This document shows, piece by piece, positions 212 to 17,244 of a stretch of 64,000 nucleotides of DNA. The DNA lies in assembly GCF_000801335.2 (NCBI RefSeq), contig NZ_JSEH01000002.1:62001-126000 (forward strand), in the 5' to 3' direction. The position numbers and the translations under genes are program-made. Positions within the stretch are counted from its first letter, which is position 1, and every line of letters begins with the position of its first letter. This DNA comes from Desulfovibrio sp. TomC (GTDB lineage: Bacteria > Desulfobacterota > Desulfovibrionia > Desulfovibrionales > Desulfovibrionaceae). The notes beneath the pieces are model-generated. The model saw only the letters and a program-made list of their open reading frames with translations. It ran no database searches and was not told where the DNA came from.

Positions 212-1819
212 ATGGGGCGAAGGTCTGTTTGGCGCATCGTTTTATTCTCGGCAGCTTTACTCATAGGGATGTCCGGGACGCCATCCTGGGCGGCGTCCGA
301 TGACTGGCTGCTTATGAACGTAGCCCCGATCGTGGCTGGTCGCATGAAGTTGACTGGAAATCATGCCGCGCGAGTAGCCAACCTTGATCCCGCCAATCCC
401 ACGGCAACCTGTCTCGTTTGCCATCAGACGCAGGCCGCGACCATGGGGGCTTCAGCGCATTACCGCTGGCGAGGCGACGCCGGCGGAATGTCCAATCTCA
501 CGGGTGATGTAGGCAAGCTCGGGGGGATGAACGACTTTTGCATCTTCCCGGACTTTAACTGGCTTGCCAAGTTCACCAACCTTGACGGCAAGCCCGTTGA
601 CGGCGGCTGTGCAGCCTGCCACGCCGGTCTTGGCAAGAAACTCGACGCGACCGAATTGGCCACCCCCACCCTGACCAATATCGACTGTCTCATTTGCCAC
701 TCCAAAAGCTACAAGCGTACTGTGGACGCGACCAACGGCACCGCCCATTTCGTGTTCGACACCGCAACCATGAACTTGTCCGCACGGCAGGCCGCCGCCG
801 ATCTCTCCCGACCCGGTCGGGACGCCTGCTTGCGCTGCCACGTCAGTTCCGGAGGAGGCAACAATTTCAAGAGAGGCGACATTGAACCCATTTTGGCTGA
901 TCCTCCCCGCACCCATGACGTGCATATGTCTGCCGCCGGGGCCAACCGTGTGTGCGTGGACTGCCACAAGACCACCAATCACCGCATCGCCGGTCGGGGG
1001 ATAGACCTGCGGGAAGTGGACAATCCCACCCAGACCGTGAGTTGCACGATGAGCGGCTGCCATGCCGCCAGCCCGCATGCCGACGCCAAACTCAACACGC
1101 ACACGGCCAAGGTCGCCTGCCAGACCTGCCATATCCCCCGGTTCGCCAAGTCTTCGCCCACGGACATGTTCCGGGATTACTCCAACGCCGCCCAGGTCAA
1201 CGCCAAGCGGCTCTATGAGCCCTGGATCGACTTTAAGTCCGACCAGACCCCGACCTACCGTTGGTCCAACGGCAAGAGCACCTTCTACGTCTTCGGTCAG
1301 CCTATCCAGGTTCAGTCCGACGGCTACGTGCTTATGGCCGGTCCCAATGGGGACATTAACGACACGGCAGCCAAGATCCTGCCCTTCAAACACCATGTGG
1401 CCAAACAGCCGCTGGATCCTGCCACCAACCGCCTGCTCCCCCTCAAAATGGGGGTGCTCTTTCAGACTGGTAACATTGATCAGGCCATCATTCAGGGGGC
1501 CGCAGCCATTGGCTGGCCCTATTCCGGCTACACCTTTGCCGATACCGAGCGTTTCCTCGGACTCTATCATGGCGTCGCTCCAAAAGAGCAGGCACTCACC
1601 TGCGCCGTCTGCCACGTCAGTAGCGGGCAAGGTCCCTTGGACTTCAATGCTCTGGGGTATGCGCGCAAATATGCCGATTTGCACGTCCTGTGCACCCAGT
1701 GCCATGAGGACAAGTCCAGTGAGTGGTCAGCTTCACAGTTGTTTACGGCTGTGCATAAAAAGCATGTGCAGGACAAGCGATACGATTGCTCACGTTGCCA
1801 CAACTTTACCCGGGGCTAG
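212..1819 (+). CDS. Periplasmic ten-heme c-type cytochrome
   Basis: A 535-residue exported cytochrome. Residues 1-26 form a signal peptide (basic start, hydrophobic core, PSWA before the likely cut). Nine CXXCH heme sites and one CX4CH site (CTMSGCH) are visible: CLVCH (residues 67-71), CAACH, CLICH, CLRCH, CVDCH, CTMSGCH, CQTCH, CAVCH, CTQCH and CSRCH near the C-terminus. A heme-free stretch of roughly 150 residues separates the seventh and eighth sites. The layout recalls octaheme tetrathionate-reductase-like and other multiheme electron carriers or reductases, but I cannot assign a substrate. A CAGGAGA ribosome site lies just ahead of the ATG. No partner gene is adjacent; the next cluster runs the other way. 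The role as periplasmic electron carrier or terminal reductase is inferred from the hemes alone. Confidence 0.9.
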   Translation: MGRRSVWRIVLFSAALLIGMSGTPSWAASDDWLLMNVAPIVAGRMKLTGNHAARVANLDPANPTATCLVCHQTQAATMGASAHYRWRGDAGGMSNLTGDVGKLGGMNDFCIFPDFNWLAKFTNLDGKPVDGGCAACHAGLGKKLDATELATPTLTNIDCLICHSKSYKRTVDATNGTAHFVFDTATMNLSARQAAADLSRPGRDACLRCHVSSGGGNNFKRGDIEPILADPPRTHDVHMSAAGANRVCVDCHKTTNHRIAGRGIDLREVDNPTQTVSCTMSGCHAASPHADAKLNTHTAKVACQTCHIPRFAKSSPTDMFRDYSNAAQVNAKRLYEPWIDFKSDQTPTYRWSNGKSTFYVFGQPIQVQSDGYVLMAGPNGDINDTAAKILPFKHHVAKQPLDPATNRLLPLKMGVLFQTGNIDQAIIQGAAAIGWPYSGYTFADTERFLGLYHGVAPKEQALTCAVCHVSSGQGPLDFNALGYARKYADLHVLCTQCHEDKSSEWSASQLFTAVHKKHVQDKRYDCSRCHNFTRG

Positions 1820-2042: not shown

Positions 2043-3836
2043 TTACCCAGCACGCCGGGGAAAATCCAGACACGTCACGAAGAGGCGGTCAAAGCCTTCC
2101 AGAGTGCTCAGTTCCAGAAAGCGCACGTTTTGGGCCAGGGCTTCCATGTCGCCGCGCGCCGCTTGTGACAGCAGGGCCAGGCAGGCCCCGCTTTTCGAGG
2201 TGTTGCCCAGATAGGCGACCTTCTCGCCCAAGGTTCGGGGGATAATGCCGCAGCCGGTCAGGCTGGCCACCGGCAGATGCGCGCCGAACTGGCCGGCGAT
2301 AAGCACCCGGTCGATGGCATCGAGAGTCAGGCCGGCCTGCTCGAGCAGGGCGTAAAGGCCCGAGAGCAGCGCCCCCTTGGCCAGTTGCACCTGCCGGATG
2401 TCTTTTTGGGTGACAACAACCGGCGAGTCCCCGGCCACCAGCCGCAGCGCCGGCTTGCCGTCCCAGGTGCAGAGGTGGGCGCGGCGGGGATCATCAGCGG
2501 CCAGAGTCTGCTCCTTGACCAGATTGCCGCGGGGCAAGATGAGTCCGATTTCCAGAAAGGTACGAATGGCGGCCAGGATGCCGCTGCCGCACAGCCCTGT
2601 CGGCGGGGCGTTTCCGATGGTCGTCAGGACCAGACCGGCTTGCGTGACGGCCACATCCTCGATGGCCCCTAACGAGGCGCGCATCCCGCAGGAAATGTTC
2701 ATGCCCTCCAGGGCCGGCCCGGCGGCGCAGGAACAGGCGAGCAAACGTCCACCGTTGGCCAGGACCATCTCCCCGTTGGTGCCGATGTCGATAAAAAGCG
2801 TGGCGCCCGGGGCCTGGGCCAGCCCCGCGGCCTGCATCCCGGCCACGATGTCCGCGCTGATGTAGGCGGAAACCGAGGGCAGGCAGTAAAGCCTCGCCCC
2901 GGGTGCGGCCGTGAGGCCGATTTCAGCAGCCGGCAGGCTTATAGCGTCGGTAAAGACCGGGGTAAACGGTGCCCGGCCCAGGGAAGACGGGTCGATCCCC
3001 AGGAGAAGATGCAGCATGGTCGTGTTTGCGGCTACGGCCAGGGTGTCGATGGCCCCGGGCGGCAGGCCCGCCTCGGCGGCCAGCTCCCCGGCCAGGGTGT
3101 TGACGCAGGCAACCACGGCCTGCTGCAGGGTGCAGACCCGCTCTTCGGGCTGTTCCATGACAAAGCCCAGGCGGCTGAGCACATCAAAGCCCTGGCTCGT
3201 TTGGGGATTTATGGCCGAGCGCGCCGCCAGCTCCCGGCCGGTGTCCAGGTCAAGGAGGGCTGCGACCACGGTGGTCGTGCCAATGTCCACTGCCAGGCCG
3301 CAACGCCGGCCGGCCCTGTCCCCGGCCTGCACGGCGACCAGTCTGCCGTCGTCAAAGGTCGCGGTCAGACTGTCGTCATCCCAGTCCAACCCGCGCAGCA
3401 GCCGGGCGGGAATCCTTTTTTCCCCCAAGGCGGCCGCCAGACGCACGGCGTGGGAGGCGGCCGGTTGCGGCTCCAGCCTGACGGCCTTTTTGACCAGGGC
3501 CGGCTCCAGCCGAAAGGGCGGCAGATACCCGTCGGACAGGATGGCGCTTTCCGTGGCGGCCTGGGGCAGGGTTACGTCCAGATCGGCTTCGGGAAAAAGC
3601 GTGCAGGCCAGACGGCGGCCCAGGGCCAGTTCTTCTTCTGTGAAGAGAGCACATTCCTGTTCTGTTGGAGGGGGGACATTGGTCCCGGCCACAGCCACGG
3701 CGCATTTGCCGCACAGGCCGGCCGCGCCGCAGGGGCTTGGGAGCATCAGGCCGGCGGCGGCCAGGGTTTCAAGCAGCGACCGGCCGGGCCGGTTGTCTAG
3801 GACCCGGCTGCGCTTAAGGATCCGAATGGCGGGCAT
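2043..3836 (-). CDS. RACo-type reductive activator of corrinoid proteins (2Fe-2S plus ASKHA ATPase)
   Basis: 597 residues. The first 95 carry a plant-type ferredoxin 2Fe-2S site with C36, C42, C45 and C78. A linker follows, then a long ASKHA/DUF4445-type ATPase part with the motif AVDIGTTTVVAALLD and a second glycine-rich region (FIDIGTNGEM). This is the architecture of RACo/RamA-like proteins, which use ATP to reduce an inactive Co(II) corrinoid back to Co(I) so that methyl transfer can resume. Its start overlaps the end of the upstream methyltransferase gene by 23 bases, so it is the last gene of the minus-strand methyl-transfer cluster. The obvious client is the corrinoid protein at 4862-5548. 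Confidence 0.9.
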   Translation of the reverse strand: MPAIRILKRSRVLDNRPGRSLLETLAAAGLMLPSPCGAAGLCGKCAVAVAGTNVPPPTEQECALFTEEELALGRRLACTLFPEADLDVTLPQAATESAILSDGYLPPFRLEPALVKKAVRLEPQPAASHAVRLAAALGEKRIPARLLRGLDWDDDSLTATFDDGRLVAVQAGDRAGRRCGLAVDIGTTTVVAALLDLDTGRELAARSAINPQTSQGFDVLSRLGFVMEQPEERVCTLQQAVVACVNTLAGELAAEAGLPPGAIDTLAVAANTTMLHLLLGIDPSSLGRAPFTPVFTDAISLPAAEIGLTAAPGARLYCLPSVSAYISADIVAGMQAAGLAQAPGATLFIDIGTNGEMVLANGGRLLACSCAAGPALEGMNISCGMRASLGAIEDVAVTQAGLVLTTIGNAPPTGLCGSGILAAIRTFLEIGLILPRGNLVKEQTLAADDPRRAHLCTWDGKPALRLVAGDSPVVVTQKDIRQVQLAKGALLSGLYALLEQAGLTLDAIDRVLIAGQFGAHLPVASLTGCGIIPRTLGEKVAYLGNTSKSGACLALLSQAARGDMEALAQNVRFLELSTLEGFDRLFVTCLDFPRRAG

Positions 3837-4869
3837 GGTTTTTCCCAGGGGTGTGGCCGGCCACGGTCGTCAGCATGGCCTGCAGGTTGGCCAGGGGCGA
3901 GGCGTTGCCCATGCCGCAGGCCGGGGAAACGATATCCACGCCGCATTCCAGGCAGTGTCGGGTCAGCGCGGCCACCTTGTCCGGGCTGCCGGATTCCAGG
4001 GCAAAGGTGCTGACATTACCCATAAGCGCGGTCTGCGGGAGGTGCTCCCGGGCTTTTTGGAGGCTAACCACGGCGTCAAAGCTCAGGGCGTCGCAGCCAA
4101 GGCCGGCCAGCAGATCGAAGACCTTGTGCATCTTGCCGCAAATATGGACGATAATCCCGGCCTGGGGATAGGCTTGGCGCAGACCCGTGCTGATCCTGAC
4201 CAGGGCCGGAATCTCGTATTGGGCAAACAGGGCCGGGCCGAGAATCTCGCCCGTGCCACTGGGGTCGGACAGGGCGATGACGTCTGCCCCTGCTTCCAAC
4301 TGGCCCAGGCCAAAAGCCAGGATAGAGTCGGTCAGGCGGTCCAGGAAGGCGTGGGCCTGCCCAGGGTTTCGGCGCAGTTCCTTGTACAAGGTGGTCGGTT
4401 CAAGCAGGCTGCCGGCCAGACTCATGGGACCGGTCAGGTTGCCGATGATCGGCACGCAGCCGCCCAGGGCCGCCAGAAGCCGGATGGCCTCAAGGACCAC
4501 GGCCGGCCGGCCAGCGCCGGGATCAAACGGCGGCAGGCGCTCCCATTGGGAGGCGGAGTCGATGGCGTAGCCAACAACATGAGGCTCATAGGTCAGTGTG
4601 CCCAGGTCGACCTGTGCGCCCAACGCTTCGGCTTCCACGGTCATGCAAAAGGGCAGGCCGTAATTTTCAAAGCACCGGGCGTCATGGGCCGCTGTGGCCA
4701 GCCGGGCCATGCGCACCGGGTCGGTGTGGGCCTCGGGCAAAAACAGGCCGGAGACCTCCATCAGTTCTCGGGTCACCATGTTCATCATGCCGCCGGGGCA
4801 GATGCACGGGGGCCGATCCACGGGTTCCCGGGCCAGGGCCTTTAAAAGCCGCGTTTTTGCGTCAAGCAT
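3814..4869 (-). CDS. URO-D-fold methyltransferase (MtaA/CmuA-like), copy 1
   Basis: 351 residues of the uroporphyrinogen decarboxylase superfamily. It starts with the typical KTRLLKALAREPVDRPP and has a probable zinc site: VHICGK in the middle and a cysteine in SPACGMGN near the C-terminus. Members next to corrinoid proteins move methyl groups between a methyl donor or acceptor and cob(I)alamin rather than decarboxylating porphyrins. The frame is open further upstream, but I start at the ATG at 4869: its ATG overlaps the stop region of the corrinoid gene by eight bases and gives the family N-terminus. Substrate unknown. It is translationally coupled to both neighbours. Confidence 0.88.
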   Translation of the reverse strand: MLDAKTRLLKALAREPVDRPPCICPGGMMNMVTRELMEVSGLFLPEAHTDPVRMARLATAAHDARCFENYGLPFCMTVEAEALGAQVDLGTLTYEPHVVGYAIDSASQWERLPPFDPGAGRPAVVLEAIRLLAALGGCVPIIGNLTGPMSLAGSLLEPTTLYKELRRNPGQAHAFLDRLTDSILAFGLGQLEAGADVIALSDPSGTGEILGPALFAQYEIPALVRISTGLRQAYPQAGIIVHICGKMHKVFDLLAGLGCDALSFDAVVSLQKAREHLPQTALMGNVSTFALESGSPDKVAALTRHCLECGVDIVSPACGMGNASPLANLQAMLTTVAGHTPGKNHARHSDP

Positions 4870-5548
4870 CTCGGCTGTCCCGGGCCAGTTGGTCGAGTTC
4901 GGCGGCCAGGAGCCGGCGGGCCACGGCGACCGCGCCCACGGCATTGTCGGCGTAGGCGTCGGCCCCGATTTTTTTGGCAAAGGCCGGGGACACCGGCGCG
5001 CCGCCGATGATGACCTTCACCGACTCGCGCAGGTTTTCTTTTTCCAGCAAGGCCACAATGCGGCCCATGTTGGCCATGGTGGTGGTCATGAGCGTGGACA
5101 GGCACAAAAGGGACGCACCCACCTCCTTGGCCTTGGCGATAAAGGCCTCGACCGGGACGTCGCGGCCCAGATCGTACATCTCAAAGCCGGCCGTCTCCAG
5201 CATGATCTTCACCAGATTCTTGCCGATATCGTGGGTGTCGCCCTCGACCACCCCGATCACAGCCCGGATCTTGCGGGCGCGCTTTTCCGATTCAGGCAGA
5301 TGCGGCTTGAGTTCGGCCAGACCGGCATACATGGCGTCGGAGCACAGCAGCAGATCGGAGACGAAATACTCTTCTTCCTCATAGAGCGTCCCGGCCCGGT
5401 TCATGCCGTCAACGAGGCCATCCAGGATGCCTTCCAAGGCAGGATGCCCAGCGCCGACATAGGCCCGGGAAACGTCGATCACGCGCTCGTCTTCCATGTT
5501 GACCACGCAGTCCGACAGGTGATGCAAGAGTTCGTGCTTGTCATTCAT
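4862..5548 (-). CDS. Corrinoid (B12-binding) methyltransferase subunit, MtaC/MtbC-like
   Basis: 228 residues. Residues 1-90 form the helical methionine-synthase-type cap domain. The rest is a Rossmann-like cobalamin domain with the base-off signature DTHDIG (D104, H106, G109) and later GGAPV. Such proteins hold the corrinoid that shuttles a methyl group between two methyltransferases. It is the only corrinoid carrier in a cluster with three URO-D-fold methyltransferases, so it presumably serves them all. The RACo-type activator two genes downstream would rescue it after oxidation. The family is certain; the methyl donor is not. Confidence 0.93.
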   Translation of the reverse strand: MNDKHELLHHLSDCVVNMEDERVIDVSRAYVGAGHPALEGILDGLVDGMNRAGTLYEEEEYFVSDLLLCSDAMYAGLAELKPHLPESEKRARKIRAVIGVVEGDTHDIGKNLVKIMLETAGFEMYDLGRDVPVEAFIAKAKEVGASLLCLSTLMTTTMANMGRIVALLEKENLRESVKVIIGGAPVSPAFAKKIGADAYADNAVGAVAVARRLLAAELDQLARDSRDA

Positions 5549-5599
5549 GCCGTTCTCCCAAAGAGAGGTTCTCGCCGTCTTGTGTTTTGTCGTGCGGCA

Positions 5600-6460
5600 T
5601 CAGGCCGGGACAAGCTGTTTGATGACGCCTTTTTTCAAGAAATGGCCGGTGTTTTTCAGGCAGGCTTCACCAAGGGGCAGGCCGCTTTTGCCGGCAGCCA
5701 GACACCCTTGGCCGTAGGCCATCGGACGCCCAAGGGGCAGGTCCTGCCACTGCGCCCGGCCTTCGCTGACCAGGGCGTGGGCTATCTTGGGGCAGACATG
5801 CACGGCGGCCTTGCCCCCAACGTCGGCTTGGAGCCGGCCCAACAGGGGCAGGACAAACCGGTCCGCCATAAAGGCAAAGCGTTTGGGACCCAGGATGGAC
5901 AGGACACCGGTGGGATCGGCGTAGCCAAGCACCGAAACGCCCGCCTTGGCTGCCGCCAGGACGTAGCCAGCAAGGTCGTCTTGCAGCCGGGTGAGCACCT
6001 CGGCCATAAGCACAGCGTCTCTGCGCCACTCCCTGATGACCACCGCCAGCTCCATGAGCCAGTTGAGGATGGTCAGGGGGCCGCTTATTTCCAGGGCCAC
6101 GGGTTGGCCGGCCCCAGCCAGCAGGGAGCAGGCCCGAAGCACCTGCCCCATGCGTCCGGCGGCGGTGTCCAGGGGCGGGAGTCGCAACACCTCGCCCAGG
6201 GAGGACCACACGAATGCTCCCGCCCTGGGGCCGGTCACGGCGTCTCCCAGCCGGATGAACGCCCCGAGGGCCTCGGCTTCTACGGTGCAGCAAAAGGGCA
6301 GTTGGCAAAGGGCAGCGCCTTTGTGTTCCTTGATCCCCTGGGACAGGCGGGCCATGGCTGCCCCGTCCGTGTGGATGTCGGGAAAGGTCAATCCCAGCCG
6401 GGCCAGGAGTCCGGCTTCGACCCCGGTTGCATCAAGGTGTCCGCAAGCTGGTTCGGGCAT
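5600..6460 (-). CDS. URO-D-fold methyltransferase-like protein, shortened, copy 2
   Basis: 286 residues, roughly 65-75 shorter than its two paralogues in the cluster. It lacks the usual N-terminal ARERVLAAL-like segment and begins almost at the conserved PEPACGHLDATG stretch. Mid-protein conservation is good (PFCCTVEAEALGAF, closely matching PFCMTVEAEALGA in copy 1). A possible zinc site remains (VHVCPK and a cysteine in AYGQGC). It lies five bases after the ABC ATPase gene and 51 bases before the corrinoid gene, so it is part of the operon. It could be an active methyltransferase of a short subfamily or a partner/regulatory subunit. Confidence 0.8.
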   Translation of the reverse strand: MPEPACGHLDATGVEAGLLARLGLTFPDIHTDGAAMARLSQGIKEHKGAALCQLPFCCTVEAEALGAFIRLGDAVTGPRAGAFVWSSLGEVLRLPPLDTAAGRMGQVLRACSLLAGAGQPVALEISGPLTILNWLMELAVVIREWRRDAVLMAEVLTRLQDDLAGYVLAAAKAGVSVLGYADPTGVLSILGPKRFAFMADRFVLPLLGRLQADVGGKAAVHVCPKIAHALVSEGRAQWQDLPLGRPMAYGQGCLAAGKSGLPLGEACLKNTGHFLKKGVIKQLVPA

Positions 6461-6465
6461 GCCGG

Positions 6466-7284
6466 TCAGGCTCCGGGTCCGTTGGCCCGGCCATTGCCGT
6501 TGGCGGCCTTCAACTGGATGATTTCCTCGTTGATGATCCGGATCAGATCATTTCGCAGCTCCACAATCTGCGGGTCCTTGTACATGGCGCCGCGATCGAG
6601 CCGCTTGTCCCGGGAAAAGGCGTGGCGGTAGATGATTCTGCTTGGCGACTGGCCGAGAATGGCAATGTCCGTGGCCAGATAGAGGGCCTCGTCCACATCG
6701 TGGGTGACGAAGAAAATGGTTTTGCGCTGGGCCGTCTCTTTTTGCCAGAGGTCGAGCACCAGTTCCTGAAGTCTGGCCCGGGTTACGGCGTCCAGGGCGG
6801 CAAATGGCTCGTCCATAAGCAGAATTGGCGGATCAATGCCAAAGGCCCGGGCAATGGCGCAGCGCTGGCGCATCCCGCCGGAAAGCTCCCTGGGGAACTT
6901 GTCGTAACAGGCGGCGTCCAATTCCACCTCGGCTAGGCGGCGCAGGGCTTTGGCCCGACGCTCGGCTGCGGACAAGGACGGAAACTTCTGTTTGAGGGCA
7001 ATGGTGATATTGTCGCCAGCGCTCATCCAAGGGAACAGGCCGTAGTCCTGAAACACCACGCCGCGCTCCAGCCCCGGCCCGGTAACCGGCTCCCCATCGA
7101 CCAGAATCTGTCCGGATTTGGGTTTTTCCAGTCCGGCCAGCAGACGCAGCAAGGTGCTCTTGCCGCAACCCGACTGGCCAAGCAGGCAAACGAAGGCTCC
7201 AGCCTCCACGTCCAGGTTGATGCCGCCCAGGATCTGGGCCGTGTCGTAGGCAAAACACAGCTCCTCAAGAGTCACATTCAACAA
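6466..7284 (-). CDS. ABC transporter ATPase, nitrate/sulfonate/taurine type
   Basis: 272-residue cytoplasmic ATPase with Walker A GQSGCGKST, signature LSGGMRQR, Walker B LLMDEPFAALDA and the switch histidine in FVTHDVDEAL. The sequence class (SsuB/TauB/NrtD-like) fits the permease at 8477-9235 and the NMT1-like binding protein at 9318-10373. It is separated from the permease by a URO-D-fold gene, which shows that import and methyl transfer are interleaved in one transcription unit. It powers uptake of an unidentified small substrate. Confidence 0.92.
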   Translation of the reverse strand: MLNVTLEELCFAYDTAQILGGINLDVEAGAFVCLLGQSGCGKSTLLRLLAGLEKPKSGQILVDGEPVTGPGLERGVVFQDYGLFPWMSAGDNITIALKQKFPSLSAAERRAKALRRLAEVELDAACYDKFPRELSGGMRQRCAIARAFGIDPPILLMDEPFAALDAVTRARLQELVLDLWQKETAQRKTIFFVTHDVDEALYLATDIAILGQSPSRIIYRHAFSRDKRLDRGAMYKDPQIVELRNDLIRIINEEIIQLKAANGNGRANGPGA

Positions 7285-7328
7285 AACGTCCAGCCTCCAG
7301 CATTCGTTTTACTTCTCTTCGCGGCTCG

Positions 7329-8420
7329 TTAGGCTTCCGGCCCGTCGCTTGGGAGCCGATCCAACATATCCCTGACGGTGTCGGGCCTGACCGGGTAGCC
7401 CACTTCCCGCACCACCTGCAGCATGGCGTCGATGTTCCGAAGCGGCGTTTCCACCGGCAGGCTGCAGCCGGACATGACCACGTAGCCCTTGGGGCTGTCG
7501 TAGGCGTCCAGAATGCACTGCAAAGTCTTGCGGCGCACATCGACCACCGTCCCGCCGTACATGACGCTGGCCGGGTCGACATGGCCGAGAATTTTCGTTT
7601 TATGGCCGATGGTTAGGCAGCAGTCTTTGAGGTTGACCACATTGTCCACGCTAAACCCGCCAACGCCGAGATCCGCGATGTCGTGCCAGATGCGTTTGGT
7701 TGCGCCGCAGATGTGGATGACCGGGGATTTGCCGTGGCTTTTGATGTAATCGACCAGTTCCTTGAGATACGGCAGGGAGAACTCCCGGAAGGCGGCCGGG
7801 CTGACCACGGTGCACGAGGACATGGGTTCGGAGATGGTCGGCGACAGCCCTTTGCCAATGGCGGCCTCGGCGTAGGCCAGGCAGGTCTCCAGGGACACCC
7901 GGCACAGCTTGTGGAAGGCTTGCGGGTTCTTGCGCATGAGCCGGAAGGATTCGTCGACCCCATAGAGGAAAAAGGCGTTGGTGAACGGACCGACAATGCC
8001 GGCGGAACAGCCGACCTCGTGGCCGATGGCCGCAAGGAGGATGTCCATGGCTTCGAGGTAGACGGGCAACCGGCCGTCCTTGCGGGGATCGGCCGGCCGC
8101 AGACAGTCGATGGCCGCGACACTGGCAACGGCCGGGGCGGCCAGATCGACGGTATGGTCCTCGGGGCAGGTCACTTTGGCCCCCATGGCCTCGGCCCAGG
8201 CGAAAAGATCGGTAAAAATCCGCACGCCGTCATAGCCAAAGCGCCGGTAGGAGGCGATCTGGGCCTTAGCCAGCACCTCGGGATCGGTGTTGAACTGGGA
8301 AATCTTGCAGCCGTAGATCCTGGCCGCGCCGTTGGCCACGTTGGGGTTGCACGGCAGCCGGTCCGCTTCCCTACCCTGGGCAATGGCGGCCGCCCGCTCA
8401 ACTGGAGTCATTTCGTGCAT
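7329..8420 (-). CDS. URO-D-fold methyltransferase (MtaA-like), copy 3
   Basis: 363 residues, full length for the family. It begins MHEMTPVERAAAIAQGREADR, a typical URO-D-fold methyltransferase start. The probable zinc ligands are in VIHICG and in the C-terminal VVMSGCSLP. It diverges from copy 1 enough to suggest a different donor or acceptor. It lies between the ABC permease (56 bases upstream) and the ABC ATPase (44 bases downstream), which ties it functionally to the imported compound. It could be the enzyme that takes the methyl group from the imported substrate. This is inference; no separate MtaB, MtbB or MttB-type first methyltransferase is present. Confidence 0.87.
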   Translation of the reverse strand: MHEMTPVERAAAIAQGREADRLPCNPNVANGAARIYGCKISQFNTDPEVLAKAQIASYRRFGYDGVRIFTDLFAWAEAMGAKVTCPEDHTVDLAAPAVASVAAIDCLRPADPRKDGRLPVYLEAMDILLAAIGHEVGCSAGIVGPFTNAFFLYGVDESFRLMRKNPQAFHKLCRVSLETCLAYAEAAIGKGLSPTISEPMSSCTVVSPAAFREFSLPYLKELVDYIKSHGKSPVIHICGATKRIWHDIADLGVGGFSVDNVVNLKDCCLTIGHKTKILGHVDPASVMYGGTVVDVRRKTLQCILDAYDSPKGYVVMSGCSLPVETPLRNIDAMLQVVREVGYPVRPDTVRDMLDRLPSDGPEA

Positions 8421-8476
8421 GGGTTCTTCTTCCTGGTGCCTGCGTTTGCGGGGCGCTGGCTCTTTCGTGAACTGGT

Positions 8477-9235
8477 TTAGCTGTTAAGGGTCCAGGCCAA
8501 GGCCCGACTTTTGATCAGGTCAAAGAGGATTATGATGCCGACCAGAATAAGAGCCATGAAGATGAAGCCGACAATGACCATGTCAAAGCGGGCAAAGTCC
8601 GAATAGTACTGGACGAAATAGCCCATGCCCGACGTGGCCCCGAACATTTCGGCCACGGTGAGCAAAATGAAGGAGAATTTGAGCGCAATGGAACACCCGG
8701 CAAAGATGGTGGGAGCGGCAGCGGGCAAGACCACGCGAAACATTTTTTCAACGCCCCGGATTTCCAGGGTGGCGGCGTTGTCCAGATAGCGTTTGTCGAT
8801 GGTGACCACCCCGGCGATGGTGGTCCCGAGGATAGGCCAGAACGCCCCCAGGAAAATGACGAACACCGAGGCGGAGTAAAAGGTGGAGAAGGCGTGGATG
8901 GCAAAAGGGGTGATCAGGGTCACCGGCACGGCGCTTAAAGCGGTGATGTAGGGGGTGATTGTGCGGCGAAGCGGCACGACAAGGCCGATGACCACGCCAA
9001 GGCTCACGCCGAGGACCACGGCCAGGGCATAGGCGGGGACCAGGAGCCTAAGTGAACTCAGCAGTCCCTCAAACAGCTTGCCGACAGATTTTGCAAACGC
9101 CGGCAGCACCTTGCTGGGGCCGACAAAAAGAAACGGGTCCAGAACGCGAAACGCGTCAGTTAATAGCCAGTAGCCGAGAATGATGCCGATACCGATCAGG
9201 CAAATACCCCAATTCTGCTTGAACGCCTTTTTCAC
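8477..9235 (-). CDS. ABC transporter permease, nitrate/sulfonate/taurine type
   Basis: About 252 residues with six hydrophobic segments typical of binding-protein-dependent permeases (GICLIGIGIILGYWLL at the start, and the EAA-type loop around LEIRGVEKMFRVVLPAAAP that contacts the ATPase). The frame is open to 9370 but overlaps the binding-protein gene there. I chose the GTG at 9235 because GGAGG sits five bases before it. Works with the ATPase at 6466-7284 and the binding protein at 9318-10373. Confidence 0.88.
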   Translation of the reverse strand: MKKAFKQNWGICLIGIGIILGYWLLTDAFRVLDPFLFVGPSKVLPAFAKSVGKLFEGLLSSLRLLVPAYALAVVLGVSLGVVIGLVVPLRRTITPYITALSAVPVTLITPFAIHAFSTFYSASVFVIFLGAFWPILGTTIAGVVTIDKRYLDNAATLEIRGVEKMFRVVLPAAAPTIFAGCSIALKFSFILLTVAEMFGATSGMGYFVQYYSDFARFDMVIVGFIFMALILVGIIILFDLIKSRALAWTLNS

Positions 9236-9317
9236 CCGATCCTCCAGGAATGCGGCGGCTGCGCCATGTCCGGTCGCAGCCGCCGCGTGTGCTCGCGCAA
9301 GCGACGTCGTTTTGCTG

Positions 9318-10373
9318 TTACAGGTTGTACTGGTTGTACATTTCGAGCTTTTTCTTGAAGAACGGATCATCCGGGTACTGGGCCAGCAGCGAATCCAGGG
9401 CGGATTTGTAAATGGCGGTATTTAAGTGGTCGTCGATGGCGACGGTTTGGTCCTTGATGTAGTCAAACGACTGCATCTTCTTCCACATGGTGACGACATT
9501 GTTCTTGTAAGGGTCGGTCTCGTAGATGAGGTGCGGGCTTTGCACAAAGCTGCGTACGAGCCCTTCGGGCATATCGAGCTCTTTCATCGTGAGCTTGACC
9601 ACCGTGTCCATGCCGCCCGGCGACTGCATGTCGCGTTCGGCGCGCAGATAGGCGCGCAGCAGTTTTTTGAGGAGTTCGGGGTTGGCGCCCATCCATTCGG
9701 TCTGGGACAGCATCCGGCAGCAGGAGTGGTTGGGCCACAATTCGTCCGGCCAAAGGACAATCCGCATCCCGGATTCGTTGATCTGCGGCTCAAAGCCAGT
9801 AGACACCGCGCCAAATTCGCACTGGCCGCTGCGCACGGCTTCCATGACGTCCTGGTTCCGCTTGATCTCGACGAAGGTGACGTCCTTGTTGAGGTCAAAC
9901 CCGGCGTCATGGAGGATGCCTTTGAGGACGATGTCCGGTGTTCCGCCGCGCATGATGGCGATTTTTTTGCCCCGAAACGACTCGATGCCCTTGTATTCCG
10001 TGCCCGGCAGCGCGAACACCGGGGTTGCGCCGATGATCATGTAGCCGCCGAAGATGGAAAATTTCTGTCCGTTGGCGATTTGGATGAGCGGACCGCCCGT
10101 ACCATAGGTGGAGATGACGTCCACCTTGCCGGAACTGAGCGCTGAAAAGGCATCGGTGCCGTTATTGATGTAGACCATCTCGACGTCGATGCCTTCATCG
10201 TCCAGGTAGCCCTTATCCTTGGCCAGGAATTGGAAGACTTGGCCGGAAGTTGCCTGGGCCGCCACTTTGATCTTGGGCTTGTCGCCGGCCGCGTCGGCCG
10301 TGGCCGCAAACCAGCCGGCGCCAAGGCACAGGCCAATGACCAGGGCGGCAAGCGATCGTGCAGTCTTCGTCAT
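9318..10373 (-). CDS. ABC transporter periplasmic substrate-binding protein (NMT1/SsuA-like)
   Basis: 351 residues with a signal peptide (MTKTARSLAALVIGLCLG, then AATADAA). The mature protein reads as an NMT1/SsuA-type binding fold: KVAAQATSGQVFQFLAKDKG, EGIDVEMVYINNGTDAF and LSSGKVDV. The start at 10373 is preceded by AAAGGAG seven bases away; the longer open frame has no such site. It should capture the imported compound in the periplasm. Relatives bind sulfonates, nitrate, pyrimidine precursors or aromatic acids, so ligand class cannot be read from sequence. Its gene follows the double-cubane protein gene by 125 bases. Confidence 0.9.
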   Translation of the reverse strand: MTKTARSLAALVIGLCLGAGWFAATADAAGDKPKIKVAAQATSGQVFQFLAKDKGYLDDEGIDVEMVYINNGTDAFSALSSGKVDVISTYGTGGPLIQIANGQKFSIFGGYMIIGATPVFALPGTEYKGIESFRGKKIAIMRGGTPDIVLKGILHDAGFDLNKDVTFVEIKRNQDVMEAVRSGQCEFGAVSTGFEPQINESGMRIVLWPDELWPNHSCCRMLSQTEWMGANPELLKKLLRAYLRAERDMQSPGGMDTVVKLTMKELDMPEGLVRSFVQSPHLIYETDPYKNNVVTMWKKMQSFDYIKDQTVAIDDHLNTAIYKSALDSLLAQYPDDPFFKKKLEMYNQYNL

Positions 10374-10498
10374 GAAACGCTCCTTTGGGGGGATAGGGTG
10401 TTGCTTCCGTTCGGCAGCAGAAAAGTCTTCCGGGCACCAAGTCCGGGACTGTCGTCCGACTCCGGGCGTCCGCGATGCCTGGCCTCTCCCGCGCCTGC

Positions 10499-11638
10499 TC
10501 ACAGCAGTTCCAGGAAGGCTTCGATGCGTGTGCGGAGTTGTTCCGTGTCGGATTCGGAGTAGTCCGTCTCAATGTGCAGCGTGGGCAGACCATGCGTCTC
10601 CAGCATGTGCGCCGTAACCAGCGGCGACTCCACGTTGTAGGTGTGGCAGCACTGCCAGGTGAGATCGATGATGCCATGGGGGCGAAATTCCTTGGTCAGC
10701 CGGTCGAGCAGGGCAAATCGGCCGGTATTGGGCGTCATCACCGAGCAGGGAATGCGCAGGTAGCGCCGGGCAATGGCGGTCAGCGGGTCGCCTGTCTCGT
10801 CAACGAGCAGGTCGAAATTTTTGACGCCCGAGCAGTTTTCAGCGGCTACGACCACGCCTCCGCTTTCCTCGACCAGCCGGACGACCTTTTCCGACCCGCG
10901 CCCGACCGGACAGCCGGTCAGGAGGATGCGCCGGGCATTAGCGGCCACGCAGGACTGGCCGGCGGCAACCAGGGCATTCAGTTCGGCCAGCAGTTCATGC
11001 AGCGTGGCGGCATAGGCGGAGGGATCGGCGCAAAAGCCCTTGGCTTCACTGACCAGCATCATGTCCAGACCGCTTATGGGAAGACAGGCGCCGGCGGCTG
11101 TGGACAACAGCCGAACCAGCAGCCGGCGCACCTCGTTTTGGATGCGGATTTCCTCGCAAAGGCCCTCAGGCGTGACGGAGTTGCCGGTGGCCGCCTCCAG
11201 GAACTCCTGGAAGCGTTGCACTTCGCCTCGCCAGTAGGCGTCCTGGGCAGGACCGATAGCGGCCGGGAGATGCATCAGATGCAGTGGCTTGATCTTGGAG
11301 AGGTGCTCGTACATCTTCTTTTTCCCGTCGCAGGTGGTCTCGCCCACGAGCAGGTCCGAGGCGGCAAAGTAGGGGCAGGCGCCGGTGACGGCGTAGCCAT
11401 AGCTCGACTTGATCAGCGGACAGAGGTTGGCGGGCAACGTCCGCTCGGCCGCCGGGATGGGAGCCTGCTTCTTGCCGCAAAGGCCAACGGGTATGGCTCC
11501 GGCGGCGCGGACCAGTTCGACCGGGGCAAAGGTGCAGTAGATGCCGACGACCAGCGCCCCGGCGTCCTTCATGGGTTCGATGTCCGCCAGAAAGCGGTCG
11601 GCCAGTCCATCGAACCGTTCCAAAATCGCTGCTCGCAT
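10499..11638 (-). CDS. 2-hydroxyacyl-CoA dehydratase D-component family / double-cubane cluster protein
   Basis: 379 residues of the HgdB/FldB/YjiM family. Conserved cysteines include C35 (GIYCTFAPVEL), C54, C73 (NLCPLIKSSYG), C88 (ACPYF) and C103 (TTCDGKKKMYE), the usual cluster-ligand positions. Relatives are either dehydratase subunits or double-cubane [8Fe-9S] reductases that act on small molecules. They need an ASKHA-type ATPase to push low-potential electrons in. Here that activase gene is broken just upstream (11683-11953), and the only other ASKHA protein is the RACo-like activator at 2043-3836. It is the first intact gene of the methyl-transfer/import cluster. Substrate unknown; a single subunit argues against a classical dehydratase. 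Confidence 0.85.
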   Translation of the reverse strand: MRAAILERFDGLADRFLADIEPMKDAGALVVGIYCTFAPVELVRAAGAIPVGLCGKKQAPIPAAERTLPANLCPLIKSSYGYAVTGACPYFAASDLLVGETTCDGKKKMYEHLSKIKPLHLMHLPAAIGPAQDAYWRGEVQRFQEFLEAATGNSVTPEGLCEEIRIQNEVRRLLVRLLSTAAGACLPISGLDMMLVSEAKGFCADPSAYAATLHELLAELNALVAAGQSCVAANARRILLTGCPVGRGSEKVVRLVEESGGVVVAAENCSGVKNFDLLVDETGDPLTAIARRYLRIPCSVMTPNTGRFALLDRLTKEFRPHGIIDLTWQCCHTYNVESPLVTAHMLETHGLPTLHIETDYSESDTEQLRTRIEAFLELL

Positions 11639-12150: not shown

Positions 12151-13569
12151 TTAATCGGGGATGGCGAGAGCGCTTTTTTTGAGCAGGGCGTAGAAATGGG
12201 AGCGCGAGAGCCCGGAGATCTCCAGCATGGCCGCCACGTCGCGGCCGTGTTCGCGCAACAGTCCTTCCAGGTAGCGTCGTTCCATGGCTTCCTTGTATTC
12301 CTTAAGGGTGCGTCGGCCGACTGGACTTGTTTCCATGGGGAAAAACCCTGCCGAAGCCATGGAGCGCCGCTCGCCGCTCTGATTGCCCCGCTCCAAGGTC
12401 GATTTGGTCACCTTGATGCGGACATTTTGGGGCAGGTGCATACTGTAGAGGGTTTTTTCCCGTCCGGAAGCCAGAAAGGCGCGCTCCACCACGTTTCGCA
12501 ACTCACGCACGTTGCCCGGCCAGTCATAGGCCTCCAACATGGCCAGGAATTCCGCGTCAAAGCCTTTTTGCGGCAGGGCGTATTCGGCCGCCAGGGCATC
12601 GGCAAAGGCCAGGGTGAGCGGCTTGATGTCTTCCACCCTGCTGCGAAGGGGAGGGAGGGACACTTCAATGGTCTTGAGCCGAAAATACAGGTCGCGGCGA
12701 AATTCTCCGGCCTCGACCATGGCTTCGAGGTCGCGGTTGGTGGCGGCAATGATTCGGAAATCGCTGCGGATTTCGGTGATGCCGCCCACCGGCCGGAAGG
12801 TTTTTTCGTGGAGTACGCGCAAGAAGGTCTTTTGCAGCGAGGTCGGCATCTCACCCACCTCGTCCAAGAAAAGCGTGCCCCCATCGGCCAGCTGGGCCAG
12901 CCCCACCCGGTCGGCGTCGGCCCCGGTGAAGGCCCCTTTCTTGTGGCCAAAGAGCGTGCTTTCCACCAGGGATTCGGTCAGCGAAGCGCAGTCCACGGTG
13001 ACGAAGGCCTTGTTGGCCCGGGCGCTGTTGGCGTGAATGAGCCGGGCGAAAAGTTCCTTGCCGGCCCCGGTTTCGCCGGTCACCAGCACGGCGGCGTTGG
13101 ATCCGGCGGCATGGGCCACCTGATCGAGGCACGGCTGCATCCGGGGGCTGGCCGTCACGCAGCCGGTCAGGGTCAGAGAGACCGGCGTATGGTCGCAACG
13201 GCGTTCCTCGCGGTACTTCAGCGCCCGCTTGAGGGTGAGCATCATCTCCTTTACCGGCGAGGGCTTGACCAGATAGTCCCAAACCCCTTCCTGAATGGCC
13301 AGTTCCGCGCCGTCCGGGTCGCCAATGCCGGTGAGGATGATGACCTCCGGGGCGTCAGGCAGGCGCTTGATGGCGGGCAGGGCGGCCAGTCCGTTGCCGT
13401 CGGGCAAACGCACGTCCAGAAATACGACGTCGAAACGCTCCCGGGCGAGCAGGTCCATGCCGGCCTCCAGGGTACCGGCGGCATCGCTGGTCAGGCGCAT
13501 CTTGCGCGTGAGGCTCATAATGGTGTCGCGGACTTCGGAGTCGTCGTCGATGATGCACACGGATTTCAT
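12151..13569 (-). CDS. Sigma-54-dependent response regulator (NtrC family)
   Basis: 472 residues in three parts. The receiver domain (1-120) has acidic residues DDD8-10 and the phospho-acceptor D52 in FLDVRLPDGNG. The AAA+ domain (about 135-370) has Walker A GETGAGKE (165-172) and GAFTGA (212-217), the loop that contacts sigma-54. A Fis-type helix-turn-helix forms the C-terminus (EISGLSRSHFYALLKKS). It activates sigma-54 promoters when phosphorylated. Its start overlaps the kinase stop by four bases (ATGA), so the pair is co-translated. The methyl-transfer cluster is the next set of genes on the same strand and is the likely target, though no matching promoter was recognised. Confidence 0.94.
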   Translation of the reverse strand: MKSVCIIDDDSEVRDTIMSLTRKMRLTSDAAGTLEAGMDLLARERFDVVFLDVRLPDGNGLAALPAIKRLPDAPEVIILTGIGDPDGAELAIQEGVWDYLVKPSPVKEMMLTLKRALKYREERRCDHTPVSLTLTGCVTASPRMQPCLDQVAHAAGSNAAVLVTGETGAGKELFARLIHANSARANKAFVTVDCASLTESLVESTLFGHKKGAFTGADADRVGLAQLADGGTLFLDEVGEMPTSLQKTFLRVLHEKTFRPVGGITEIRSDFRIIAATNRDLEAMVEAGEFRRDLYFRLKTIEVSLPPLRSRVEDIKPLTLAFADALAAEYALPQKGFDAEFLAMLEAYDWPGNVRELRNVVERAFLASGREKTLYSMHLPQNVRIKVTKSTLERGNQSGERRSMASAGFFPMETSPVGRRTLKEYKEAMERRYLEGLLREHGRDVAAMLEISGLSRSHFYALLKKSALAIPD

Positions 13570-16500
13570 GCGGCTATCGTTTGGGGCTTGGCGTCGAGCA
13601 CCTCGCGGATGGCTGCCGAGATGATCGCCTGATTGTAGGGTTTGAGCACGACTTTCTTGATGTTGCCGGCCAATTTTTTGTCCTCGATGTCGCCCATGCG
13701 CCCGGAAACCAGGATGATCGGCAGGTTCGGGGCCATCTCGGCGGCGCGTCGGGCCAGCTCCAGGCCGTTGACGTCGGGCATGTCGAAGTCGGTGATGCAG
13801 ACGTCAAAAGCATCCGGTGCGGCCTGAAGAGCCGCCAGGGCCTCCAGGGCGTTACCGTGGGCGGTGACTTCGTGGCCGAGCTGGGCCAGCACCCGGGGGA
13901 TGGTCAAGAGCTGGTCTTCATCGTCCTCGACAAAAAGGATGCGGTCGCGCCCCCGGTTGGGAGTGGGCCTTGTCTGGACGGCCGGGGCGTCGGCCGTGGC
14001 GAGGAGCGGCAGATAGATGTCAAAGCCGGTTCGCTCGCCTGGTTGGCTGGCCACCCGGATGCCGCCCCGGTGGCTCTTGACGATGCCGCGAACCACAGCC
14101 AGCCCGAGTCCCGTGCCTTCGCCCTTTTGCTTGGTGGAGAAAAACGGATCGAAGATCTTGTCCACAATGTCGCCGGCAATGCCCGGACCGGTATCCACCA
14201 CCGACAGGCGGGCGTAGCGGCCGGCCCTGGTCCCGACCTGTCCGGCCTGGGTTTCGTCGAGTTCGTCCTCGGTCAGCGACAAGGTGAGCCGGCCGCCGGA
14301 TTCGCGCATGGCTTGGAAGGCGTTGGTGCACAGGTTCATGACGATTTGGTGGAGTTGGGTGGGATCGGCCCGGCAGGTCACGGGGGTGGCCGGCATGTCC
14401 ACGACGACTTTGATGTGGCGCGGTATGGAGGCTTTGAGCAGGCCGGCCACCTCGTGCATCACGTCGGCCACGTTTATCGGCGCAAACCCGGCCTGGGACG
14501 GTCGGGTAAAGGACAGGATCTGCTTGACCAGCCGGCTGCCCCGTTCGCCGGCCTTGAGCACCCGGCGCAGATCATCCTCCATGGCGTCGCCGGGAGGCAG
14601 GTCCATAAGCGCCAGTTCGGTGGAGTTGATGATTGAGGTCAGAATGTTGTTGAAATCGTGGGCAATGCCGCCGGCCAGGGTACCGATGGCTTCCATTTTC
14701 TGGGATTGGAGCAGCTGCCGTTCCAGGCTGACCTTTTGGGTCACGTCATCGGCGGTGGACAGGACGCCGACCACCGCCCCCCGGTCGTCATGGAGCGGGA
14801 CCTTCTTGATTTCCAGGAGCACGTCGGCGCCCCGGACGTTACGGGCGGCCAGTTCACCGGCCACCGGGCGGTTGTGGTGCATGACATCGATGTCGGTGGC
14901 CCGCACTGCGTCCACATCCTCGGGACGCAGGGGCAGGGCGGTGTCGTCGTGGCCCATCAGGGCAGCGAGGTCGGTGAAGCCGAAAAATTCGGTAAAGGCC
15001 CGATTGGCTCCCATATAGCGCAAGGCCTTGTCTTTCCAGGACACCAGCTGGGGGATGTTGTCGAGAACGAGGCGCAGCATCTCCTGGGATTCGCGAAGTG
15101 CGCGTTCGGCCTCGTGGCGCATGGTCACGTCTTCGACCACGCCTTCGACATAAGCCAGATAGCCGTCGCGGTTGGCAATAAGGCGCATGTTGATGTTGGC
15201 TGTGACCTGCCGGGTATCGGGGCGCACAAACCGGGTTTCAAATTTGACAGTGGCGGCTTCGTCCACGGCTGATTCGAGCAGGGAGGCAAATCGGTCGCGA
15301 CCGGAAAAGAGCACATCCATCATGTCGCCGCGCCGGCGCAGCAGGGTGTCGAGGTCATCGACCCCGAGCATGGCCAGCATGGCCGGATTGACATCGACGG
15401 CCCGGCCGTCCGGGGTCATACGGAAGATCCCCAGAGCGGAATTTTCAAAGATGCCGCGGTATTTTTCTTCGGCTTGACGCAGTTTTTCCGCCGCCCCCTT
15501 GAGTTCGGAAACATCGTAGAGCACGCCGACCAAGCCGGCGATTTCCTTTTTGGCGTTTTCGTAGACGGCCCGGTGCAGGATGACGGAATGGGGCGTGCCG
15601 TCGGCGGCCAGAATCTCGGTCTCGCCCACCCGAACCCCGGGCTGGCGCAGCAGGCCGGCGTCCTCGTCGTCGAGGGCGCGGGACAGCGGCGAGTCGGCCA
15701 CGGCCTCACAGTCCCGGATGGACGCCGCGTCGTCGCCAGTGCCGCACCAGAAGCGGAAGGCCGGATTGCAGCCTCGGTAGCGTCCGGTCTCGTCCTTATA
15801 GTAGATCGGAATCGGGATGGTGTTGACCAGGGTTTCCAGGAACGACACCTGGTCCTTGATTTTTTCCTCCACCGAGCGGCGGCGCAGGATGTTGGTCACC
15901 AAGAGGACCATGACGTAACACAGAATGAGGACGCTTATGATGATGGTCCAGAAGACCGCAATATTAATGTGATAGAAGGGGTACGGTTCATTGATGAGGG
16001 TAAAGCCGGAGGGCAGCTTGTCCGTGGTGATGCCAAGGCGCAGCATCTCCCGGAAGTCGAAGATGAAGGTGTCGTCGGTGTTGGCGACAATGGGCAGTTG
16101 GGACAAGGGGACGCCGTGCAAAAGCTTGTCGGCCATGGCGGCGGCGATGCGGCCTTCCTCGAAGCCGCTATGCAGGCGGCCGCCGACGATGCCGTGGCCG
16201 AGCATGAACTGCCAGGCGCTGTATATGGGGACGTCGGAATTGGCCCGGATGGCGGCCAGGACCTCGTTGACCGAATAGACGTCTTTCTCGGTGTCCTTGT
16301 AAAACGGAATCAGAAAGATCATGGCGTCGTCGGGGAGCGAGCGGACCCGGTCCAGGATGCCTGAGAGAGTCAGGGCGTCTTCGTATTCGAATGTGAGCCG
16401 TCCGGCAAAATCGGGTTCCACAGCCCGCAACTGGTTGCCGATGGCCACGCCCGTGACCGAGCTATCGCCGAAAATGACCAGCCGGTCGCGGCCGGGATGG

Positions 16501-17150: not shown

Positions 17151-17244
17151 GGAAGCGTTTCGTCACCGGTGTGGCGCCCGGACTTCAAATCCGGTGTGTG
17201 GTCGAGAGGTCACAGGTAGGTTCGACTCCTATACGCTTCCGCCA
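17151..17244 (+). tRNA. selC: tRNA-Sec (anticodon TCA)
   Basis: A 94-base tRNA with an eight-base-pair acceptor stem (GGAAGCGT at the 5' end pairing with ACGCTTCC), discriminator G and an encoded CCA end. The anticodon arm is CCGGA-CTTCAAA-TCCGG with anticodon TCA at 17185-17187. A long variable arm and a T-loop GGTTCGACTCC follow. The eight-pair acceptor and UCA anticodon identify selenocysteine tRNA, which reads UGA in mRNAs carrying a SECIS element. No selA, selB or selD and no recognisable selenoprotein are in the window. Longer open frames drawn across this locus (for example a start for the ArsR gene at 17119) are excluded by it. Confidence 0.96.

Follow-up and report, generated by a model that had tools for sequence, protein, structure and literature searches.

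What substrate could call for an ABC importer, three URO-D-fold methyltransferases, a corrinoid protein with its reductive activase and a double-cubane-cluster protein, all encoded in a single run of nine genes? We analyze such a run on the minus strand, from position 11638 to position 2043, of a 64,000-nucleotide stretch of Desulfovibrio sp. TomC (contig NZ_JSEH01000002.1, positions 62,001 to 126,000; hereafter, the window). From sequence comparisons, we propose that it is a variant of the mlp gene clusters (MGCs), which have been proposed to demethylate methyl-selenides (PMC10418091), and that it may serve to salvage selenium from a methylated selenium compound, a reading that we hold with about even confidence. 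It is supported by the MGC gene core and the defining features of that class, by the placement of two proteins as Mlp1 and Mlp3 relatives in a tree, by co-occurrence with SelA, by selenium markers near related clusters, and by a Cys-Cys motif in the binding protein of the importer.

The nine genes, from the first onward, and a neighbouring tRNA gene are as follows:
10499..11638, minus strand: DCCP, a double-cubane-cluster protein (HgdB/YjiM-like), first gene of the run (NF040772, PF06050)
9318..10373, minus strand: SBP, a periplasmic binding protein of the NMT1/SsuA family, with cysteines C218-C219 (the M at 10373 counted as 1) (PF09084)
8477..9235, minus strand: permease of the ABC importer (PF00528; start set from homologs)
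7329..8420, minus strand: UroD1, a URO-D-fold methyltransferase of a lineage outside the Clostridium drakei Mlp2 clade (PF01208, tree)
6466..7284, minus strand: ATPase of the ABC importer (PF00005), adjoining the binding protein in the loci of clade A, a group of UroD1 relatives defined below
5600..6460, minus strand: UroDs, a short URO-D protein, Mlp1-like (PF01208, tree)
4862..5548, minus strand: Corr, the methyltransferase corrinoid protein (PF02310 and PF02607)
3814..4869, minus strand: UroD3, an MtaA/MtbA-like methyltransferase, Mlp3 (NF004889, structures 4ay7/4ay8, tree)
2043..3836, minus strand: RACo, the corrinoid reductive activase, with Fer2 and ASKHA domains (PF14574, PF17651, PF00111)
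17151..17244, plus strand: tRNA-Sec, outside the operon and 5.5 kb from the cluster

Homologs and start codons place the start of SBP most likely at 10373 (signal peptide) rather than 10502, that of the permease near 9235 rather than 9370, and that of UroD3 at 4869 rather than 4980. With these starts, the genes are separated by gaps of 125, 82, 56, 44, 5 and 51 nt or overlap by 8 and 23 nt, and they form one probable operon. The ATPase gene sits between UroD1 and UroDs; that is, the importer genes are interleaved with the methyltransferase genes. A preliminary description of this DNA had listed these families on one strand with short gaps and overlaps and had pointed to the lack of a classical first methyltransferase (MtaB, MtbB or MttB). 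Pfam and NCBIfam searches confirm each of the families it named and find none of those three among the nine proteins, and the tight spacing holds after the revision of the starts. Clusters of the mlp kind commonly do without such an enzyme, since in the proposal of PMC10418091 their MtaA-like proteins themselves remove the methyl group from selenium or sulfur.

The arrangement is conserved among close relatives. In a sister genome (G013), the order DCCP-SBP-permease-UroD1-ATPase-UroDs-Corr-UroD3-RACo is the same, with 85-95% identity per gene, and the nearest relative with a named record, Desulfovibrio sp. DV (L075), has the same nine genes at 85-95% identity. A further genome (G012) shares the order from SBP to UroD3, where the examined stretch stops inside the gene, and has its DCCP gene in divergent orientation. 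Its distribution is sparse and patchy: of 199 genomes of the class searched, only 4, the window's included, have a UroD1 match at E 1e-60, and three of the four belong to a single genus.

MtaA-like URO-D proteins belong to the core of an MGC. All three in the cluster exceed the PF01208 cut-off of 23.9 bits (263.8, 62.0 and 262.2 bits, the 62 being that of UroDs and the 262 that of UroD1). UroD3 also scores 378.6 bits against NF004889 (cut-off 244) and matches MtaA, its solved relative (4ay7/4ay8), with E 1.1e-52 for 4ay7; UroD1 and UroDs match the same models below the cut-off. At 286 aa, UroDs could be taken for a truncated or broken URO-D protein, a notion that we reject because most of the related proteins from other clusters measure about 285-295 aa, the usual length of Mlp1-like proteins. 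The zinc motif of UroD1 is intact (H236, C238 and C319, invariant in seven aligned clade A rows), as is the soft-metal zinc motif of UroD3 (H242, C244 and C318); UroDs keeps the His-x-Cys and not the region of the third ligand. In a quick tree of 118 rows sampled from 317, which drew long-branch warnings, UroDs groups with the short first Mlps of C. drakei and S. ovata. UroD3 shares a set of 18 rows (SH-aLRT 92) with the third Mlps of those two species and of C. carboxidivorans, and it is 54% identical to the third Mlps of the Clostridium loci. UroD1 belongs to a 30-row clade (SH-aLRT 100); C. drakei Mlp2 falls in a separate one of 10 rows (98). This 30-row clade splits into clade A, with 16 rows (99) and the window inside, and its sister clade B, with 14 rows (84). 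Elsewhere in the same genome, contig C6 (L003/L040) encodes a fourth URO-D protein and a homolog of the corrinoid-binding protein (32%).

The remaining features of the MGC class are also present: the genes run in one direction with no divergent gene between them and gaps below 2 kb, and there is no tetrahydrofolate methylase gene within 20 kb, as the PF00809 genes of the genome lie at C1:281 kb and C2:215.6 kb and the cluster at C2:64.0-73.6 kb. A type 1 MGC additionally encodes Mlp3, here UroD3, and Mlp2. UroD1 lies outside the C. drakei Mlp2 clade in our tree; the Mlp2 sub-cluster of the authors of the class, drawn by network clustering with their own reference sequences, may be wider. Under the strict definition of Mlp2 plus Mlp3, we therefore call the cluster an MGC variant rather than a type 1 MGC.

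Why selenium? SelA is found in 16/16 genomes with a clade A UroD1 versus 10/19 with clade B, where three clade A genomes that also carry clade B copies (G438, G547, G527) are counted in A alone, one genome (G404, locus L128) is assigned to clade A from a partial gene, and seven of those counted in clade B (G539, G453, G511, G460, G480, G499, G624) are placed by score instead of by tree, their loci not being among those examined. For comparison, SelA exceeds its cut-off in 43 of 250 genomes of the class of Anaerospora. The window's genome has SelA. Strict selenium markers occur near 6 of the 16 clade A loci, the window with its tRNA-Sec being one of the six. In Anaerospora hongkongensis (L085), the flanking genes are yedF and yedE (over the cut-off), DCCP, an activator, a gene resembling cysteine desulfurase/selenocysteine lyase that stays under the SclA cut-off, and a nifB-like gene just below its own; a tRNA-Sec lies 4.8 kb past RACo, and SelA is on the same contig. 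In Rhodoblastus (L078, R. acidophilus, and L168), DCCP, an activator-like gene and nifS are divergent to the importer, with a tRNA-Sec about 5 kb and SelA about 13 kb from DCCP. Matches to yedE, yedF or sclA-like genes are nearby in L213/L234, L215 and L216 (genomes G438, G444 and G527), and L036, which has a DCCP ortholog and a Cys-Cys importer with no MGC in the stretch, places them beside a Se/S carrier (DUF3343) gene and yedE. YedE, YedF and DUF3343 are treated as selenium genes in PMC5322559. In the window itself, the tRNA-Sec is the only tRNA gene found, and a kinase and a regulator lie between it and the cluster. We rejected the idea that selenocysteine genes form part of the window's locus, since only the tRNA-Sec is close and the ten further proteins searched, listed below, gave other matches or none.

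Several observations weigh against a selenium role. The genomes behind the SelA counts are not independent in phylogenetic terms, the Fisher values take no account of common descent, and completeness is given for few of the genomes. No tRNA-Sec lies in the 8.4 kb examined upstream in the sister genome G013, and neither its examined stretch nor that of G012 contains YedE, YedF or SclA, so the selenium neighbourhood of the window itself may be due to chance. Six of the 16 clade A loci show neither DCCP nor a strict selenium marker in the examined DNA, some of which consists of short contigs. DCCP alone is not a selenium mark: in Desulfovibrionales, a YedE/YedF/SclA match accompanies a window-type DCCP at one locus (L036) out of 15 (the window and L025-L038), and a DCCP of the other type at none of five (L039, L041-L044). 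The window's cluster contains no DCCP activator gene, and volatile methyl-selenides may need no importer. Finally, clade B keeps both the importer and the Cys-Cys motif though 9 of its 19 genomes have no SelA match; neither feature can thus be selenium-specific.

This last point bears on the main rival, methyl-sulfur salvage, which we judge rather unlikely for the window. Here, the importer would bring in a methylated sulfur compound (a thioether, a disulfide or a sulfinate-like compound), DCCP or another reductase would free methylthiol, and the Mlps would shift methyl groups between sulfur compounds for the recovery of sulfur or methionine. The binding protein is kin to SsuA/TauA, and methionine salvage has been proposed for MGCs in organisms without selenium traits (PMC10418091). 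In clade B, a more distant importer of the same type, with Cys-Cys, is present in 14/14 loci examined, and nitrogenase-like NifD or NifH matches occur in 7/14, including one (L231) in which Pfam confirms NifH-like and nitrogenase component 1-type proteins plus a PALP-family PLP-dependent enzyme. Two of the genomes without a SelA match that carry clade B clusters are 92% (G185) and 95% (G370) complete. Against this reading, clade A has SelA in every genome and DCCP or a selenium gene beside 10 of its 16 loci, whereas DCCP, activator, YedE and YedF are found in 0/14 clade B loci; a single weak SclA-like match (27%) occurs in L227. The enzyme chemistry also favours selenium, as an Mlp2 of Clostridium ljungdahlii transfers the methyl group of methylcobalamin to selenide and is 4.3-fold slower with sulfide (PMC10418091). 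The clade B features fit a sulfur version of the system, in line with the methionine-salvage idea of PMC10418091. A further locus of G185 (L268), where nitrogenase-like genes of the NifH and component 1 types immediately precede an NMT1-type Cys-Cys importer, is a possible sulfur counterpart.

The importer occurs together with UroD1. SBP matches PF09084 and stays below the cut-off of TIGR01728; its AlphaFold model (pLDDT 88) has an SsuA/ThiY-like fold. Our anchor loci are the best 80 of 429 UroD3 relatives, and by tblastn only four of these 80 (L075, L078, L081, L085) have an NMT1 binding protein plus permease. All four are among the six anchor loci with a close UroD1 (at least 60%), as against 0 of the 74 others, two of which (L082, L105) have more distant Cys-Cys binding proteins by profile search. 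Within clade A, the binding protein is found in 9 of 16 loci; the other seven comprise four with none in the stretch (L083, L218-L220) and three that are cut off by a short contig or a nearby contig end (L215, L217, L128). Over the whole UroD1 lineage, 23/30 loci have an NMT1/SsuA-type importer.

A Cys-Cys-Arg (CCR) is common to all 16 binding proteins first aligned. In a larger comparison, 36/36 binding proteins from MGC or DCCP loci have the vicinal cysteines versus 3/21 other NMT1 proteins (15 lack them and 3 are gapped at the motif); the 36 leave out duplicates (L075, which equals L025, and L234, which repeats L213) as well as L268-L270, which were chosen for the motif, and 16 of them were in the recruiting profile. 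The 21 controls derive from 65 NMT1 matches in ten genomes, 30 of which had loci, after removal of seven that were MGC-linked, of L259, which lies within the G438 island, and of L246, which the search did not recover. Eight of the 36 come from DCCP loci of Desulfovibrionales whose examined stretch holds no MGC (L026, L027, L033-L038); profile search finds no such binding protein in four other window-type DCCP loci (L028, L029, L031, L032). The profile aligns the Cys-Cys of SBP within the CCCFC motif of yeast Thi5, an iron-binding motif according to PMC10512395. As a separate observation, L213 (G438) holds three different Cys-Cys binding proteins and importer genes in a 20-kb stretch with DCCP and an activator.

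Vicinal thiols would, on general chemical grounds, also suit As(III) and Hg(II), which raises the alternative that the Cys-Cys protein imports methylated arsenic or mercury species and the corrinoid system demethylates them. Some binding proteins of the group do weakly match SaoX, the binding protein of the proposed selenocysteine-assisted organometal (SAO) system, whose genes are listed among the selenium genes of MGCs (PMC10418091, Fig. 5 legend). The best match among six proteins reaches only 47.2 of 300 bits, though, and SBP itself has no SaoX match even at E 10, so we excluded it from that family. No arsenic or mercury gene is among the annotated genes of the cluster or of parts of L085, L078, L036 and L034, no dedicated search having been made, and we regard organometal(loid) handling as improbable.

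As for the first gene, DCCP scores 484.9 bits against NF040772 (cut-off 350) over its full length, its nearest solved structure is 6eno (E 1.7e-79), and cysteines 35, 73, 88, 103, 269, 298 and 331 are kept in 37/37 aligned rows, a set that contains the window's protein and a number of duplicate loci. The co-occurrence search proposed along with the preliminary description recovers the full order in the sister genome G013 and DCCP in 9 of the 16 clade A loci and 18 of the 80 anchor loci. The low anchor count might mean two units lying side by side, one with DCCP and one with the importer and MGC, which is compatible with the other readings and which we think quite unlikely. Desulfovibrionales DCCP orthologs do occur near other Cys-Cys importers at the eight loci without an MGC mentioned above, and in G012 the DCCP gene is divergent from the rest. 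The nine clade A associations, on the other hand, extend across several groups (Desulfovibrionales, Rhodoblastus, the class of Anaerospora and Clostridia), and the interleaving in the window ties the importer itself to the methyltransferases. On contig C8 of the window's genome (L039), a second DCCP, 41% identical, adjoins a match to an HgdC-type activator, the only one in the examined stretches of this genome and a candidate energiser for the window's DCCP. Another locus (L041, in G017) has a DCCP of the second type and an activator in a 20-kb stretch with NifH-, NifD- and NifB-like matches.

A last alternative is that the cluster feeds growth, with methylated amines, methoxyaromatics or sulfonates being demethylated to obtain energy or carbon. 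Some sulfate reducers are generally known to use C1 compounds, and the importer belongs to a sulfonate-type family. The genome, however, has no more than two genes with the pterin-binding domain PF00809. Their open frames span 436 and 806 residues, the latter perhaps MetH, and neither is within 20 kb of the cluster, which makes growth on a methylated compound unlikely. Furthermore, UroD1 and UroD3 carry the His-Cys-Cys soft-metal zinc motif, which is associated with sulfur or selenium and not with oxygen (PMC10418091). We consider growth on such a substrate highly improbable. Of the proposal in the preliminary description, the combination of import, corrinoid methyl transfer and a double-cubane protein in one probable operon stands. 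The substrate class is not wholly unknown, as it had stated, our best guess being methylated selenium with sulfur as the rival; and the pairing of corrinoid chemistry with an HgdB-like protein, which it had singled out as novel, is already in print (PMC10418091, results and Fig. 5 legend).

If the cluster does salvage methylated selenium, the steps might be as follows. The Cys-Cys site of SBP would capture a thiol-reactive methyl-selenium species (e.g., methylseleninate or a mixed methyl-selenosulfide), which the ABC importer would take in. DCCP, energised by an HgdC-type activator encoded elsewhere, could then reduce the compound to methylselenol; this step is a guess, because the biological role of DCCPs, which reduce acetylene, hydrazine and azide, is stated as unknown in PMC11971306. 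By homology to Mlps, UroD1, possibly with UroDs, would move the methyl group from zinc-bound selenium to the Co(I) of the corrinoid protein, and UroD3, by homology to MtaA/MtbA, would pass it to a thiol or sulfide. RACo would repair the oxidised corrinoid, as its homologs do. The freed selenide could enter selenophosphate and selenocysteine.

A more general and more tentative proposal follows the importer across both clades. The Cys-Cys importers of SsuA/NMT1 fold may constitute a family whose ligands, perhaps bound covalently, are methylated compounds of selenium or sulfur and which is paired with a low-potential reductase, double-cubane for selenium and nitrogenase-like for sulfur; DCCP would have its job in organoselenium salvage, and UroD1 would represent a fourth Mlp lineage with a substrate of its own. 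We lean slightly against this scheme as a whole. Were the selenium reading true, anaerobes would have an uptake system devoted to methylated selenium, and double-cubane cluster proteins a testable physiological role. The reading would also explain why importers travel with some corrinoid methyltransferase clusters that have no classical methyl-donor enzyme, and the selenium and sulfur versions could be told apart from sequence by the UroD1 clade and the neighbouring reductase.

Around the cluster, the DNA directly upstream encodes, on the same strand (12151-16976, minus), a large PAS sensor kinase together with a response regulator of the NtrC type. This two-component system may or may not control the cluster. 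The sister locus (L025) has no match to either protein at the corresponding place, and no sigma-54-like site is found between 11638 and 12151, the scan having yielded fewer matches than expected by chance (24 versus 31). A single sigma-70-like site (12040-12012) and the terminator matches are at chance level. On the other side, an octaheme c-type cytochrome of the tetrathionate-reductase family (212-1819, plus strand; TIGR04315, below the cut-off) is convergent with RACo. Ten further proteins of the window, nine at 17.5-33.6 kb and that at 212-1819, were searched against NCBIfam at E 1e-10, giving FtsY, a histidine kinase, a glycosyltransferase, a diguanylate cyclase-type protein and the octaheme cytochrome, with five lacking a match.

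How does the cluster compare with known systems? Its DCCP belongs to the same family as that of the DCCP/DCCP reductase system of Carboxydothermus hydrogenoformans (6eno, 7yyl, 7yzm), with residues 20-379 aligned and the cysteines conserved. In Calderihabitans, the genes for DCCP and DCCP reductase adjoin (PMC7306483), whereas the window's cluster has no activator gene. The methylthio-alkane reductase-type nitrogenase-like loci resemble the sister version, in that Cys-Cys importers lie near nitrogenase-like genes, putative methylthio-alkane reductases, at L268 and at the seven clade B loci mentioned above. The window shows no nitrogenase-like match in its first 20 kb. The dimethyl-selenide system SdmABC of Methanococcus voltae and M. 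maripaludis, in which an mlp-type gene is needed for dimethyl-selenide use by M. voltae, likewise combines a corrinoid protein with URO-D-fold methyltransferases and is used under selenium starvation (PMC10418091 and the available portion of PMC11097638). It is archaeal, and its description there mentions no DCCP or interleaved importer.

As far as our literature search reaches, three elements look new: the UroD1-importer lineage, its selenium-linked and probably sulfur-linked clades, and a Cys-Cys importer family that also accompanies DCCP without methyltransferases. We found no description of an NMT1/SsuA-type importer of this kind in the literature searched, although an earlier one is possible; the main text of PMC10418091 (version 4) names no such importer, with "ABC" appearing once, in a reference title, and methionine transporters as the sole transporter mention. 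The nearest relative is the type 1 MGC (Kountz & Balskus 2023, PMC10418091), with which the cluster shares several Mlps, one corrinoid protein, one Ram/RACo, a single strand, the lack of a folate methylase and a double-cubane protein, reported there as a neighbour. At the locus of C. drakei (L092), a species named in that study, the order is UroDs-like, UroD1-like, Corr, UroD3, RACo, and the Corr-Mlp3-Ram order is common to the window. The differences are that in the window UroD1 occupies the place of Mlp2 and that genes of an NMT1/SsuA-type importer, whose binding protein has the Cys-Cys pair, stand among the methyltransferase genes.

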